Shown here in pieces: positions 17,699-24,347 of a stretch of DNA of 41,027 nucleotides. Location: assembly GCA_014190095.1 (NCBI GenBank), contig BJFW01000008.1, positions 1 to 41,027 of the forward strand. The letters run 5' to 3'. Below the pieces are notes generated by a model. That model did no database searches, was not told the origin of the DNA, and was given only the letters and a program-made list of their open reading frames with translations. How positions within the stretch are numbered: position 1 is the first letter of the stretch; the number at the start of each line of letters is the position of its first letter. Source of the DNA: Actinomycetes bacterium. Its GTDB lineage: Bacteria > Actinomycetota > Acidimicrobiia > Acidimicrobiales > Ilumatobacteraceae. The position numbers were made by a program, and so were the translations under genes.

Positions 17699-17989
17699 CT
17701 AGTTCTCGAACAACGGGATTTCATTTCCCGCTTCAAGAGTGACGATGGCCCGTTTGGTGTTTGGACGCTGACCAAAGCGGTTGGTTCCGCGAGTCTGGCG
17801 CATCTTGCCACGACGGTTGAGAGTGTTCACGCGACGAACCTTGACGTTCCAAATGGCTTCGACTGCGTCACTAATTTCTGGCTTGCTGGAGTCTGGGTGT
17901 ACTTCAAATGTGTACGTTCCCTTGTCCATCAATGAGTAGCTCTTCTCCGAAATGATCGGGCGAAGGATGATGTCGCGTGGATCTTTCAC
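17699..17989 (-). CDS. rplW: 50S ribosomal protein L23
   Basis: [56 protein letters not shown]. Confidence 0.97.
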
Positions 17990-18636
17990 TTTGCGGCCTC
18001 CTTGACCTTCGGCAAGCTTGCTGTTGTAAACACAAGCCAGTCGTTGCAGAGAATGTCGTAGGCGTTGAGTTCTGGGGTGATTACCACCTGAACATTGCTC
18101 AAGTTGCGGAATGACTTGCTGGCGACCTCATCATCGCGATCTACAACGATCATGATCTTGCCGTCGAGACCAAGTGAGTTCAACAACAACGTTGCATCCT
18201 TGGTGCTCGGCTTGTCGAAACTAAACTTGTCAACAACAACTACCTTGCCTTCAAGCGCACGATCAGACAATGCTGAACGAAGTGCCAAAGCAATCATTTT
18301 CTTTGGTGTGCGTTGTGTGTATTTGCGTGGCTTTGGTCCGAGTGCAACAGCACCACCACTGAAGTGCGGTGCACGAATTGAACCTTGACGAGCGCCACCA
18401 GTTCCTTTTTGGCCGAATGGCTTCTTGCCACCACCGCGAACTTCGGAGCGTGTCTTCGTGCTCTGTGTACCTGAACGACGGTGTGCCAACTGTGCAGTAA
18501 CCACTTGGTGCATTACTGGAATGTTTGGCTCGATGCCGAAAAACTCTGCTGGCAAAGTTGCCGAGCCAGTTTTTTCTGCTGCCGCTTTAGGAGCTGCTTT
18601 CTTCGCAGCTTTCTTTACTGGTTTTGCAGTTGCCAT
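17986..18636 (-). CDS. rplD: 50S ribosomal protein L4 with atypical Lys/Ala N-terminus
   Basis: [55 protein letters not shown]. Confidence 0.96.
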
Positions 18637-18640
18637 CGCG

Positions 18641-19279
18641 TTACTTTCCCTTCACCGCGTTACGCACGATTACGACGCCACCGTTTGGACCAGGAACTGA
18701 ACCCTTCACCAACAGCAGACCGCGCTCGAGATCGGCTTGTACAACTTCAAGATTCAAGGTGGTCGTTTGTGCGTGACCCATGTGGCCAGCCATGCGCAAG
18801 CCCTTGAATACACGACCAGGAAATGAGCATGAACCGATAGAACCTGGCGCACGGTGGTGCTTGTGGTTACCGTGACTTGCTCCTTGACCAGCAAAGTTGT
18901 GGCGCTTCATTCCACCTGCGAAACCCTTACCACGACTTACCGCAGTGACGTCAACGCGCTCGCCTGCAGCAAGTGTGTCCACAGTGATTTCTTGTCCAAC
19001 GGTGAAGCCATCAACTGACTCGAGACGAAGCTCGACGAGTCGACGGCCTGCAGCAACGCTGGCCTTTGCGAAGTGACCAGACTCGGCCTTGGTTAGTTTC
19101 TTCGGATCCTTTTGACCGTAAGTGACTTGCAAGGCTGCATAGCCGTCACGCTCACCGGTCTTAACTTGGACCACACGGGCTGGTTCAACACGCAGCACAG
19201 TTACGGGAATGATGCGCTGGTCATCTCCCCAAATCTGTGTCATGCCGACCTTCTCGCCGACGATTGCTTTTTGTGCCAT
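18641..19279 (-). CDS. rplC: 50S ribosomal protein L3
   Basis: AIVGEKVGMTQIW, GGMKRHNFAGQGASHGNHKHHRAPGSIGSCSFPGRVFKGLRMAGHMGHAQTT. Confidence 0.98.
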   Translation of the reverse strand: MAQKAIVGEKVGMTQIWGDDQRIIPVTVLRVEPARVVQVKTGERDGYAALQVTYGQKDPKKLTKAESGHFAKASVAAGRRLVELRLESVDGFTVGQEITVDTLAAGERVDVTAVSRGKGFAGGMKRHNFAGQGASHGNHKHHRAPGSIGSCSFPGRVFKGLRMAGHMGHAQTTTLNLEVVQADLERGLLLVKGSVPGPNGGVVIVRNAVKGK

Positions 19280-19345
19280 AACGGCGACCCTTTTCTCGTT
19301 CGTGTAGTTCGATGTGTCTGTACTTGTTCATTTTTTGCAATGTTT

Positions 19346-19477
19346 AAACATCGCCGTTCACGCAAATGCTCCGCTCGGCAAAAGCCGGCGGAGCACCGAA
19401 AACAGTGGTGCTGCAATGTCCCCCTTGCGGGGCTCTTGCAGACGTCGATTGTGACGCCTCAAACTTTGGCGATGTTT
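19346..19477 (-). promoter_or_regulatory. candidate structured 5' leader RNA of rplC (closing stem plus hairpin arms with alternative pairing)
   Basis: 10-nt perfect inverted repeat 19346-19355 (aaacatcgcc) / 19468-19477 (ggcgatgttt) enclosing hairpins at 19367-19395, 19392-19412, 19411-19441 and 19441-19458. Confidence 0.6.
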
Positions 19478-19562
19478 CCAACTGGATGTCGGACATGTCG
19501 CTAATGCGGAGTTGAAACTCTATCGGCGCAAATTCAGGCTTCCCAACGCCCAAAACAAGGGT

Positions 19563-19586: not shown

Positions 19587-20771
19587 TTAGTCGCCGGTTC
19601 GGGCCACCAATTTGGCCTTCACGGTGATCCGTTTGCCGTCCCGAAGCAGCTCAATTTCGACGGTTTGACCGGGGCTGGCATCGCGAATTGCGGCCACCAG
19701 ACCCGCCTGTCCGTCAATTGGCTCTCCATCAACAGACAGCACAATGTCGCTTTCTCTAATGCCAGCAAGGCTTGCAGGGGAATTTGGCTGGACGCTAGAG
19801 ATAATTGCCCCCTGGCCGCCGTCTGTCCGCTCGGCCAGACCTACCCCCAAAAAACCCTCTTGACGAGCCTGGCCGCCTGCCTGGCTGCGAAGTTGCTCGA
19901 GGACAGGCACGATTTCGTCCACCGCGATGGAAAAGCCCACATTGTTGGCGGCCGAATTGGCGTCGCTCCGAGCCACGGCCGTATTGATGCCAACAACTTC
20001 GCCTCGGAAATTCACCAGTGGTCCACCTGAGTTACCCGAGGAAATCGCAGCATCCGTTTGAATAAGACCATTCAAGGCCCCTGACTCGGTGATGATCGTT
20101 CGCTTCAGTGCAGAAATTATTCCCGAAGTTACCGTTGGTCCGCCATCAAGATCGAGCGCGTAGCCAATGGCAATTACTCCATCACCAATACGAATGGTTC
20201 CTGGTTGCGCAAATGTTGCTGGCTTCAAATCTGTTGCTTCAATCTTCAACAATGCAAGATCGTTACCGGGATCAGACGCCAATACTTTGGCTAGACGTGG
20301 TTCAGTTTCACCAGCAAAACGAACTTTAACTTCGGTTGCATCGGCAACCACGTGCGCGTTGGTCAAGATCTCTCCATCGGCAGTGAGCACCACTCCGGTA
20401 CCCGTGCCCTCACCCGTTGTCATTCCATCATCAATTGAACTTGAAATGGTGACAACACTGTCGGCCATTGCGTTAGCAACCTGCGCAATAACAGTGTCGC
20501 CCACACTTTCATCATCTGGACTTACTTGGCTCGTGACGAGAGGAGAGTTTGATGATTGAATTGAAGAACTTGAACCAAAAGACAGATCCCAATTGTCTGC
20601 GACTTCATTTCCAACAAGTCCACCAACAAAACCAACTACCAAGGTCAACAGCACGCCAATTGTGCGACGTGGTGATTTATTTGACGCACCCTGGGCAGGT
20701 GGAGCCGGTGGTGGGGGCAGCGGTGAACTGAATTCGTTTTCTTCAGGGGACGGGGTCATCCAACTAGTCAT
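19587..20771 (-). CDS. membrane-anchored HtrA/DegP-like S1C serine protease with PDZ domain
   Basis: Pro-rich N-terminus, one TM (IGVLLTLVVGFVGGLVG), triad motifs TNAHVV / DPGNDLALLKI / SSGNSGGPL, PDZ GFLGVGLAE...NSPASLAGIRESDIVLSVDGEPI. Confidence 0.93.
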   Translation of the reverse strand: MTSWMTPSPEENEFSSPLPPPPAPPAQGASNKSPRRTIGVLLTLVVGFVGGLVGNEVADNWDLSFGSSSSIQSSNSPLVTSQVSPDDESVGDTVIAQVANAMADSVVTISSSIDDGMTTGEGTGTGVVLTADGEILTNAHVVADATEVKVRFAGETEPRLAKVLASDPGNDLALLKIEATDLKPATFAQPGTIRIGDGVIAIGYALDLDGGPTVTSGIISALKRTIITESGALNGLIQTDAAISSGNSGGPLVNFRGEVVGINTAVARSDANSAANNVGFSIAVDEIVPVLEQLRSQAGGQARQEGFLGVGLAERTDGGQGAIISSVQPNSPASLAGIRESDIVLSVDGEPIDGQAGLVAAIRDASPGQTVEIELLRDGKRITVKAKLVARTGD

Positions 20772-20834
20772 GACTTTGTTCTATCGCAAAATCAGCAAAG
20801 TAAGCCATCAGAAACATGCATTCTTTACCAATTC

Positions 20835-20863
20835 TTGAAATCGCTCGTTCCGCTTGCCATAAG
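20835..20863 (+). promoter_or_regulatory. candidate sigma70-type promoter for the plus-strand GNAT gene
   Basis: TTGAAA (20835-20840), 17-nt spacer, CATAAG (20858-20863), 17 nt upstream of the GTG start. Confidence 0.3.
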
Positions 20864-20880
20864 CCGCTAAGTTCGCCCAT

Positions 20881-21408
20881 GTGCAAGCACCGCAATCTTC
20901 GATCAAAATTCGTCGCGCCACAGTTGCTGATGCTGCCTCAATTGTAGAAATTTACAACCACGAGGTTCAATTTGAGACCTCAACCTTTGACCTTGTGCCC
21001 CGCACGCTCGATGCACAGCAAGCATGGATCAGCGCTCGCAGTGGTGCATTTTCTGCAATCGTTGCAATTGATGAAACTGACACAGTTGTTGGGTTCGGTG
21101 CTCTAAGCGAATACCGAGATCGTGCTGCATATAAAACCTCGGTAGAAAACTCGGTCTACGTAAAGAGAGATCTTGCGCGCTCAGGAATTGGTCGCTTGAT
21201 TCTGACCAACTTGTTGCAGCAAGCTGCCGACTCTGGTTTTCATTCGGTGATGGCGCGAATCGAAGCGTCAAGCACTGCATCACGTGGACTGCACGAAGCG
21301 TGCGGCTTTACGTTGGTGGGAATTGAGCGTGAAATCGGTCGCAAGTTTGGTCGTTGGCTTGACGTGGCAATAATGCAATGCCTCTTACATGAACAACCCG
21401 GTATCTAA
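20881..21408 (+). CDS. GNAT N-acetyltransferase (phosphinothricin/amino-acid acetyltransferase-like)
   Basis: IRRATVADAASIVEIYNHEV, SVYVKRDLARSGIGRLILTNLLQQA, ARIEASSTASRGLHEACGFTLVGIEREIGRKFGRWLD. GTG start. Confidence 0.88.
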   Translation: MQAPQSSIKIRRATVADAASIVEIYNHEVQFETSTFDLVPRTLDAQQAWISARSGAFSAIVAIDETDTVVGFGALSEYRDRAAYKTSVENSVYVKRDLARSGIGRLILTNLLQQAADSGFHSVMARIEASSTASRGLHEACGFTLVGIEREIGRKFGRWLDVAIMQCLLHEQPGI

Positions 21409-21411
21409 GGA

Positions 21412-22425
21412 CTACCCCAGTAAATCGTTAGTGATTGGTTCACCAACTGCAATATCACGTTTTACTTTCATGCCCGAAATGCGCGAGAAATCATCTGGCG
21501 ATAATCCACCTGCGGGTCGTACCGAGCGAACATTGAGTTCGGTGATCTGATCGCCAGCTTTGATTGCAGTCACTGCTCGCAGTGAACGACGAAATTTCAA
21601 ACTGTTTACTTCAGATGCAGACGGGCCAAAGCGTGCGGTGCCTAATGCACTTGAAGCCTCTCGAATGTCGCGAATCATTGCAGCAAACTCGTGTGGCTCT
21701 AAAGAAAACGCTCCATCTGGGCCACCATCGCTTCGGCGCATAGTGATGTGCTTTTCAATAATGGTTGCACCAAGTGCGACGGCACTAATTGCAGTTACCG
21801 ACGTCATGGTGTGATCTGAAAGTCCAACAGGAATTCCCCACTTTGCGATCATGGTCGGAATTGCAGCCAGATCCATTTCCGAACTATTTGCGGGGTAGGT
21901 GGAGTTGCAACGAAGCACTGAAACTTGCGGCGCACCTGCACCTTGCGCCGCTTTAACCGCAGCATCAATTTCATCCAACGTCGACATACCTGTCGACATA
22001 ATCATTGGCTTGCCCTTTGATGCAACATAACGAATGAGTGGAAGGTCAACTAGTTCGAACGATGCAATTTTGTAGGTCGCAATGTTGAACTTCTCAAGAA
22101 AATCAACAGCAGTGTTATCAAACGGGCTCGATAGCCAATCGATGCCAAGTTTGTTTGCTTCGGCAACCAAGTCACCGGTCCATTCCCAAGGAGTCATCGC
22201 TTCGGCATACAAGTCTGCAAGCTGACGACCGTCCCACAGTGTTCCGCCACTTACGCGGAAGTCGGGGTGATCGGAGCGCACCGTAATGGTCTCTGCCGTG
22301 TAGTGCTGAAACTTCACCGCATCGGCACCGGCTTCGTGAGCGGCATGAATAACTTCAAGTGCCCGAGTTTTGCTACCTCCATGATTGGCAGATAGCTCGG
22401 CAATGACATACACAGGTTTACCCAT
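21412..22425 (-). CDS. pseI: pseudaminic acid synthase (NeuB/PseI family with SAF domain)
   Basis: VIAELSANHGGSKTRALEVIHAAHEAGADAVKFQ, KIASFELVDLPLIRYVASKGKPMIMSTGM, LRCNSTYPANSSEMDL, GLSDHT, EKHITMRRSDGGPDGAFSLEP, C-terminal SAF-like RSLRAVTAIKAGDQIT. Confidence 0.88.
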   Translation of the reverse strand: MGKPVYVIAELSANHGGSKTRALEVIHAAHEAGADAVKFQHYTAETITVRSDHPDFRVSGGTLWDGRQLADLYAEAMTPWEWTGDLVAEANKLGIDWLSSPFDNTAVDFLEKFNIATYKIASFELVDLPLIRYVASKGKPMIMSTGMSTLDEIDAAVKAAQGAGAPQVSVLRCNSTYPANSSEMDLAAIPTMIAKWGIPVGLSDHTMTSVTAISAVALGATIIEKHITMRRSDGGPDGAFSLEPHEFAAMIRDIREASSALGTARFGPSASEVNSLKFRRSLRAVTAIKAGDQITELNVRSVRPAGGLSPDDFSRISGMKVKRDIAVGEPITNDLLG

Positions 22426-22978
22426 TAATGCTCACCCCCTTTTCGCTCAGCTTCTGCAGAACACGTGATTCAGACATATTCCACGACTCACGTGTTAGTT
22501 CAAGTGTAACTACCGACAACATTTCATCACCGCGCTTCACGGCATCGATCTGTAAGCCTGTGCGCACATAGCCAACGCTTTCGTATAGTCCAATTGCATT
22601 TTCGTTCTGTGCAACGGCTTCGCATTTCACAACATCTACGACCAACTCATTGAATGCGTAACGGAACGAGAGCGCGCACGCGGCCTGCGCAACGCCTTTG
22701 CCACGTGCATTCATATCTGCCAAATACATTCCCCACTCACATGAACTTCCTTGGCTGGAAACGCCTGTAAGAAAAACTGAACCTACTGCGACACCATCTG
22801 CAACGATTTTCCAATACACCTTGGACGCATCAGCGAGCATGGCGTCAAACCACGAATTGTGCTCTTCTTCGCCTATCTGATGGTTTGTGTACATCCACTT
22901 CGAAACGGACGGGTCGTTTCTCCACTCGCGAAGTGACAATTTATCGGCAGGCGAAATTCGAACAAGTCCCACAATCAC
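22418..22978 (-). CDS. pseH: GNAT acetyltransferase, PseH-like (UDP-sugar amine N-acetyltransferase)
   Basis: LREWRNDPSVSKWMYTNHQIGEEEHNSWFDAM, VGSVFLTGV, NENAIGLYESVGYVRTG; overlaps both pseG and pseI. Confidence 0.82.
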   Translation of the reverse strand: MIVGLVRISPADKLSLREWRNDPSVSKWMYTNHQIGEEEHNSWFDAMLADASKVYWKIVADGVAVGSVFLTGVSSQGSSCEWGMYLADMNARGKGVAQAACALSFRYAFNELVVDVVKCEAVAQNENAIGLYESVGYVRTGLQIDAVKRGDEMLSVVTLELTRESWNMSESRVLQKLSEKGVSING

Positions 22979-23982
22979 GCGATTGCTCCGAGTTCACGCG
23001 CCACCATGCTTGCGCCATGAGCAACACCCGTGCTTAGGGCTGCACCGCGCATGGCAGAAGTTCCGCTCAAAATGCATGATTGCACTTCGTTCAACACAGC
23101 GTCAATGTTGAACCGAACACGGCAGTCAACGACACGTGTGAATCCAAGTTTCTTTGCTGCATTTGCTGATGCAAACTGATTATCAGCAACAACTAAGCCA
23201 ATTGATGGTGTACCCACTGCACATGCTTCCCACAACGACGAGCCTGCTGCAAGCACGGCAACATGGGCACTCGCCAAACTCGAAACGTAATCCTGCTGTT
23301 CAATCAGAGTTACATTCCCCAACTGATCTGCCAACTTTTGGATGTGTACTCGCTGAGTGTTGGTGTGGCCAACTGCAACGCGGATCTGCAAACCAGTTTC
23401 AGCCAATGCCTCAACAATTGGTGCCGTAAGTCCAAGGAAGTCGGCACCACCCATTGCAACGAACACTTCACCTTCGCGAGACGACAAGTTCATTGCGGCG
23501 ACTTCACGAACTTCTTTGCGCACCATCGCATATTGCAAACCAAGCAAAAGTTTTGGGTTGCCTTGAAGTTGTGCATACATCGATGCAGATGCATGCGGAT
23601 TTTGATTAATCACAGCACTCGGCGTCTGGGCATTCGTTTCTGCATTGTCATCAACTACAGCAAAAGGTGTGCTACTGGCTTCAAGCACTGCAAAAAACTC
23701 GCGGGAAAACTCGTAGCCGTCAACTACAACGATATTGGCATTGCGCTGAAGCACGAATTGAGCGTCTTCACTAGACCGGGGAGCACACGCAAGCTCAACC
23801 AATTCAACGCCACATGATGTGGCGAGCGACTGAAGACTTGGCGCGAGCTCGAAAGAAACGAGCTCGACGCCAAAACCTTCGTCGAGTAACGCCTCACCAA
23901 GCGAAAGTGATCGCATGACATGTCCAACCCCGATAGAGCTGGACGCATCTGCCCGCAGCACTGCAACCTTTCGGTTAACCAT
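22975..23982 (-). CDS. pseG: PseG-like UDP-2,4-diacetamido-2,4,6-trideoxy-beta-L-altropyranose hydrolase
   Basis: LRADASSSIGVGHVMRSLSLGEAL, VVDGYEFS, VFVAMGGADFLGLTAPIVEAL, AVLAAGSSLWEACAVGTPSIGLVVADNQ (GT-B UDP-binding motif). Confidence 0.88.
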   Translation of the reverse strand: MVNRKVAVLRADASSSIGVGHVMRSLSLGEALLDEGFGVELVSFELAPSLQSLATSCGVELVELACAPRSSEDAQFVLQRNANIVVVDGYEFSREFFAVLEASSTPFAVVDDNAETNAQTPSAVINQNPHASASMYAQLQGNPKLLLGLQYAMVRKEVREVAAMNLSSREGEVFVAMGGADFLGLTAPIVEALAETGLQIRVAVGHTNTQRVHIQKLADQLGNVTLIEQQDYVSSLASAHVAVLAAGSSLWEACAVGTPSIGLVVADNQFASANAAKKLGFTRVVDCRVRFNIDAVLNEVQSCILSGTSAMRGAALSTGVAHGASMVARELGAIA

Positions 23983-24032
23983 GTACTACGCACCCTAATT
24001 GAAGGGCGTTTATCGCCTGTGAAGAACTGAAA

Positions 24033-24347
24033 TTAACTGTTCTGCAGCTTGATTTCGATGTCAACGCCAGCAGGCAGTTCAATGCGCTGGAGGCTGTCAA
24101 TGGTCTTCGCGTTTGGTTCCACGATGTCGATGAGACGCTTGTGAATGCGCATTTCGAAATGCTCACGTGAGTCTTTGTCGACGTGTGGTCCACGGATCAC
24201 CGTGTAACGGTGGTTGTCCGTAGGCAACGGAATTGGACCGCGCACTGTCGCGTTGGTTCGAGCAACAGTCTCGACGATCTTCTTTGAAGACTCATCGATG
24301 ATCTGATGATCGAATGCCTTGAGACGGATGCGGATGCTTGATGACAT
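24033..24347 (-). CDS. rpsJ: 30S ribosomal protein S10
   Basis: [39 protein letters not shown]. Confidence 0.98.

Follow-up and report, generated by a model that had tools for sequence, protein, structure and literature searches.

A conserved tandem-hairpin RNA in front of rplC in Acidimicrobiia, a probable ribosomal leader

Introduction

What stands in front of rplC, the gene for ribosomal protein L3, when other genes have come between it and rpsJ? The question is raised by a stretch of 41,027 nucleotides (contig BJFW01000008.1), referred to here as the window, whose source belongs to the Ilumatobacteraceae of the class Acidimicrobiia, the L3 encoded in it matching that of named MAGs of the family at 99-100%. 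Along the minus strand, fusA, tuf and rpsJ (24033-24347) are followed by an insert and then by rplC (18641-19279; Pfam Ribosomal_L3), rplD (17986-18636; Pfam Ribosomal_L4) and the rest of the ribosomal block. The insert carries PseG-like, GNAT and NeuB genes, a plus-strand GNAT gene, and a gene for HtrA (19587-20771).

The inserted DNA (19587-24000) has features of its own. The HtrA-like protein is a trypsin-PDZ protease, and in several members of the family its gene also lies upstream of the RNA described below. The NeuB/GNAT/PseG-like cluster resembles one for the synthesis of nonulosonic (pseudaminic-type) acids, and the plus-strand GNAT comes in addition to it.

From the cloverleaf to two tandem hairpins

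The first-pass annotation of this DNA had placed a candidate cis-regulatory RNA in front of rplC, and all the stems that it listed are found: a perfect 10-nt inverted repeat (19346-19355/19468-19477), GGCGUC-ACAAUC-GACGUC (19441-19458), CUGCAA...CCCC-GCAA-GGGG...UUGCAG (19411-19441) and UGCUCCGC...GCGGAGCA (19367-19395). The segment 19340-19480 (minus strand) folds with an energy of -68.1 kcal/mol; dinucleotide shuffles average -43.6 +/- 3.8, and 0 of 200 do as well (z = -6.43). These stems had been assembled into a cloverleaf, in which the inverted repeat closes three arms, and this arrangement draws on the perfection of the 10-bp repeat in the source genome and on its being the minimum-free-energy structure when the segment is folded alone. 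What has been conserved is instead a pair of tandem hairpins, P1 and P2. In the predicted transcript (19510-19250), P2 pairs with a probability of about 1.0 and P1 of 0.2-0.7; the closing stem, given these natural flanks, reaches only about 3%, and therefore falls outside the conserved element together with the first arm. Among the five nearest relatives the closing stem is 88% paired with zero two-sided changes, 4 of its 10 pairs are broken in L036, and farther out in the genus it is missing. Nor has the first arm (GGCGUC/GACGUC) been conserved: pairing of the 5' block with the 25 nt before it is no better than with shuffles. The cloverleaf is, in our judgement, scarcely credible.

The conserved element occupies 19357-19451 on the minus strand, as do all its parts, and comprises a 5' AAYYGAYGUC block, hairpin P1, a linker, the G+C-rich hairpin P2 and a YYGCGUG tail. 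The 5' block (AAUCGACGU, 19442-19450; class consensus AAYYGAYGU) is apparently unpaired, and its A, A, G, A, G and U columns have frequencies of 0.82-0.98 in 178 distinct sequences. P1 (19411-19441) is built from an outer helix (CUGCAA/UUGCAG), an inner helix (CCCC/GGGG) and a GCAA loop, and is interrupted by an asymmetric internal loop, GAG/GACA in the window, whose class form is an invariant G opposite RACC. The linker (19397-19410) has the class consensus CACAACCGA, and the window copy starts with CACCAC. P2 (19366-19396) reads GUGCUCCGCCGGC-UUUU-GCCGAGCGGAGCAU and contains a near-invariant GCUCCG/CGGAGC, with 94-97% of cells paired and two-sided changes at 5-6 of its 9 pairs. In the tail (UUGCGUGAA, 19357-19365; class YYGCGUGAR), the G, C, G, U and G columns have frequencies of 0.84-0.97.

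Further downstream lies the Shine-Dalgarno-like AAAAGGG of rplC (19288-19294, minus strand); an SD-like motif within the 20 nt preceding the start codon is present in 161 of 193 loci. In many lineages (within L193-L270), tail and SD are separated by an additional G+C-rich hairpin, for example AGCCCCTCGGGGCT, which is lineage-specific and not conserved in sequence. A coding role for the motif was considered and rejected, since its lengths show no preference modulo 3 (57/71/65) and every frame contains stops.

Conservation and covariation

Across the Ilumatobacteraceae, the regions upstream of rplC (97 distinct) have one obvious block in common, absent only where a contig end cuts the locus. In an alignment of 47 diverse copies (A1), 97.2% of the cells are paired, against 33-57% when the partners are slid, and two-sided changes occur at 12 of 17 pairs. 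A second alignment (A2) was made from 100 loci of the class that had been found by covariance model R1 alone, with gene context unused. Here 95.0% of the cells are paired, compared with 83.2% after shuffling and 37-53% after sliding, percentages that lean towards the model because the loci were both found and aligned with R1. Less affected by this selection are the two-sided changes, seen at 14 of 17 pairs in 189 cells and covering all five outer and three inner modelled pairs of P1, and a scan of all columns. None of 500 shuffles reached A2 on any of five measures. In the all-against-all scan (APC-corrected G statistic, 178 distinct sequences), the seven strongest pairs all fall within P1 and P2, namely the five outer P1 pairs, one inner P1 pair and pair 2/8 of P2. 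The element is a conserved RNA in front of rplC that has evolved to keep its fold.

The central proposal of the first-pass annotation, a cis-acting RNA upstream of rplC that had so far gone uncatalogued, is thereby upheld. Covariation in the homologous upstream regions, whose absence it had set against the proposal, is strong, and a scan of the window and six relatives against Rfam 15 at gathering score returned no match, the best permissive one being a chance resemblance to SNORD34.

A structured, conserved RNA with unpaired conserved residues upstream of a single gene could also be a riboswitch, in which a small ligand such as a nucleotide alarmone would control ribosomal protein synthesis. 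Yet the element has two hairpins only, the scan of 178 sequences showed no conserved multi-branch pocket or pseudoknot, and every locus examined has the element only before rplC. We hold this reading to be very improbable.

Distribution and linkage to rplC

Covariance model R1 detects the element in 174 of 395 Acidimicrobiia genomes, and a second model, R2, in 186 of 395, representing 101 of 183 genera; across the class it occurs once per genome. The source genome itself has one convincing R1 match, its three further matches being weak (E > 0.05). In all 193 loci examined, 100 of them retrieved by the model alone, the element precedes the rplC start by 7-193 nt (median 47), and in 17 loci only 7-20 nt separate the tail from the start codon. 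The nearest gene before the element is rpsJ in some loci (L151, L166, L168, L175, L177, L179, L180 and L183), and in others an HtrA gene intervenes (L150, L156, L158, L169 and L174), so that the leader stays with rplC when HtrA and other genes separate the latter from rpsJ.

When 20 apparently missing loci of the class were re-searched, five proved positive under a sensitive search. Four loci (L297, L298, L301 and L302) retain P1, with its GUC/GUU prefix and RACC loop, beside a diverged P2; this P1 pattern also occurs in 3-8 of 50 shuffles, and single cases are therefore weak. Six more distant members of the class have no leader and an rpsJ-rplC gap of about 60 nt or less, and two class genomes (L303 and L304) are real exceptions, with long rpsJ-rplC spacers and no detectable element. 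A spread beyond the class was rejected, as the outside matches that were fetched lacked rplC and, where aligned, mainly P2 matched. Second copies in some f4 genomes were likewise discarded, both of the two fetched having a poor P1 and a terminator-like P2. These weak second matches (L339:2635-2726 and L340:2663-2781), the former lying after an aquaporin-like ORF, are G+C-rich hairpins followed by UUUUGCGU, and are probably intrinsic terminators resembling P2.

Some database titles deserve a remark. Records named 'Bifidobacterium breve' (L101, L113, L123 and L124) and 'Ferrithrix thermotolerans' (L082, L083 and L090) encode an L3 that is 83-85% identical to that of the window, and have the leader where the upstream DNA is complete; these titles look like mis-assigned MAG names.

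A promoter-like sequence and a probable transcription unit

Upstream of the element on the minus strand, a -35-like box, TTGGGA (19541-19546), and a -10-like box, TAGAGT (19517-19522; family pattern CGATAG[AC]GTT), are separated by a spacer of 18. Of 153 non-redundant loci, 84 have the general pattern TTGNNN-N16-19-TANNNT before the motif, where shuffled sequences give 4.0 +/- 2.1 and the reverse strand 2, and 38 have the more specific [CG]G[AG]TAG[CAG]GT, where shuffled sequences give 0.5; the -10 box has a median position 44 nt upstream of the element in these loci. Judged from these boxes, transcription in the window would start near 19510. A start downstream of 19346, which the first-pass annotation had set against its own proposal, is not what this promoter-like sequence, lying upstream of the element, would predict. 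A terminator-like hairpin (19577-19563) follows HtrA, in a scan whose total is close to the number expected by chance. Taken together, the promoter-like pair and this hairpin point to a separate transcription unit that begins with rplC. The -10 box that recurs in front of the leaders is TAG[AC]GT, often within CGATAG[AC]GTT, rather than TATAAT, and may mark the promoters of ribosomal genes throughout the family.

Stable tandem hairpins near the beginning of a strongly expressed mRNA could also serve its processing or stability, with RNase III or RNase E entry deciding where the message of the rplC operon begins, a role that would tolerate the distance of 7-193 nt to the start codon. On the other hand, the promoter-like sequence already puts the 5' end near the motif, and near-invariant loop and single-stranded nucleotides (G/ACC, YYGCGUG) go beyond simple processing needs, which leaves a processing element distinctly unlikely.

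Proposed regulation and candidate ligands

Our preferred reading, which we consider probable, is that 19357-19451 (minus strand) is one copy of a class-wide autogenous ribosomal leader (r-leader) of the rplC-rplD operon in Acidimicrobiia. The upstream promoter would yield an mRNA with the two tandem hairpins in its 5' UTR, followed by rplC, the first gene of the controlled operon, rplD, the second, and the remaining ribosomal genes. A ribosomal protein of the operon, when in excess, would bind the leader (the P1 internal loop; P2 with the tail) in place of its rRNA site, and the bound leader would lower expression of the operon. For start codons 7-20 nt past the tail, the simplest mechanism would be steric repression, with ribosome entry blocked; for the more remote ones, at up to 193 nt, control would have to tolerate distance, through a trapped initiation complex or through an effect on transcription or decay. 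The near-invariant unpaired residues (the G opposite RACC, the 5' AAYYGAYGUC block and the YYGCGUG tail), together with the near-invariant P2 stem, fit a protein-binding site.

The likeliest ligand is L4, the product of rplD, then L3, then others. L4 is put first because the rule in the field favours a precedent ligand encoded in the operon (PMC7247131), and by this analogy, which the first-pass annotation had likewise called plausible, we advance it tentatively; L3 is possible, with a lesser chance. An r-leader often, though not always, imitates the rRNA site of its protein. The choice here rests on analogy because no similarity beyond chance to the 23S/16S rRNA of the class was found: local alignments with the rRNAs in L292 were no better than shuffles, and 22 geometric matches in rRNA sequence were judged to be chance. 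A doubtful variant is a new class of r-leader at an unusual place, after rpsJ and before rplC, whose ligand lies outside those of the surveyed leaders (L3, for instance). The protein would recognise the internal loop of P1 (G opposite RACC), and the output would tolerate distance. If this were true, a bacterial class would have re-invented the control of its largest ribosomal operon and shifted it off rpsJ.

Several specific mechanisms were tried and rejected. Sequestration of the SD by the linker (GGCAACAACC with GGUUGCC) is suggestive by eye in Ilumatobacteraceae, but permuted pairings are as good (p = 0.65 and 0.84). An alternative helix between the tail and the 3' strand of P1 is 79.8% paired, against 79.5% in shuffles (187/500). 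Against intrinsic termination, most distinct sequences have no more than 2-3 U among the 8 nt that follow P2. A related idea is a transcription attenuator or pausing element, in which P2 and the tail would terminate weakly, perhaps helped by Rho or NusA, in response to growth rate or transcription-translation coupling and without a ribosomal protein ligand. P2 is indeed a strong G+C-rich hairpin, it is followed by GGGGCUUUUUCGUG in one genus-level group (L131 and relatives), and the weak secondary matches of the model, G+C-rich hairpins followed by U-runs, look like terminators. The scarcity of U in most members nevertheless speaks against an attenuator, as does the terminator scan, which did not call P2 of the window, and the conservation of the P1 internal loop and 5' block would be left unexplained; we regard this reading as unlikely.

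If the autogenous r-leader is accepted, it defines an independent ribosomal operon from rplC onward, which would explain the harmless insertion of genes between rpsJ and rplC, and it probably lets the cell tune its output of ribosomal proteins. The carriers are a large group of bacteria from soil and water, most of them uncultured, and class-wide covariation in about 100 genera makes the ligand and the mechanism directly testable.

Comparison with known ribosomal leaders

The element lies consistently upstream of a ribosomal protein operon and has a conserved secondary structure with covariation, the marks of an r-leader, and we class it as a new RNA family within a known kind (ribosomal leader), with a covariance model ready for a database family. 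No actinobacterial leader of rplC or of an S10-type operon appears in Table 1 of the r-leader survey (PMC7247131), and the main texts of the open-licence literature held no description of the element. The actinobacterial L17 and L31 r-leaders are of the same phylum and kind, but belong to different genes (rplQ and rpmE) and do not match here (PMC7247131). The Firmicutes S10 r-leader, mentioned in the same survey, is also the leader of an S10-type operon, but comes from another phylum and gave no Rfam match here (PMC7247131).

Two systems come closer. In E. coli, L4 represses its own S10 operon by transcription and translation, through a site narrowly distributed in gammaproteobacteria; its leader, like the present one, is structured and precedes an operon with L3, L4 and the following ribosomal proteins (PMC10931766). 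That leader lies upstream of rpsJ, however, whereas the element described here lies between rpsJ (or inserted genes) and rplC, and its structure is different, with no Rfam match here. The other is the candidate L4 r-leader of Archaeoglobi (Eckert and Weinberg 2020), for which L4 was inferred from precedent, the precedent ligand encoded in an operon being taken as the likeliest, with a confidence that varies greatly among such predictions (PMC7247131). It is archaeal, and is set apart from the element by the Rfam scans of the window and relatives, which gave no match, rather than by alignment; like the leader in Acidimicrobiia, it precedes a listed set of regulated genes that begins with rplC and rplD.
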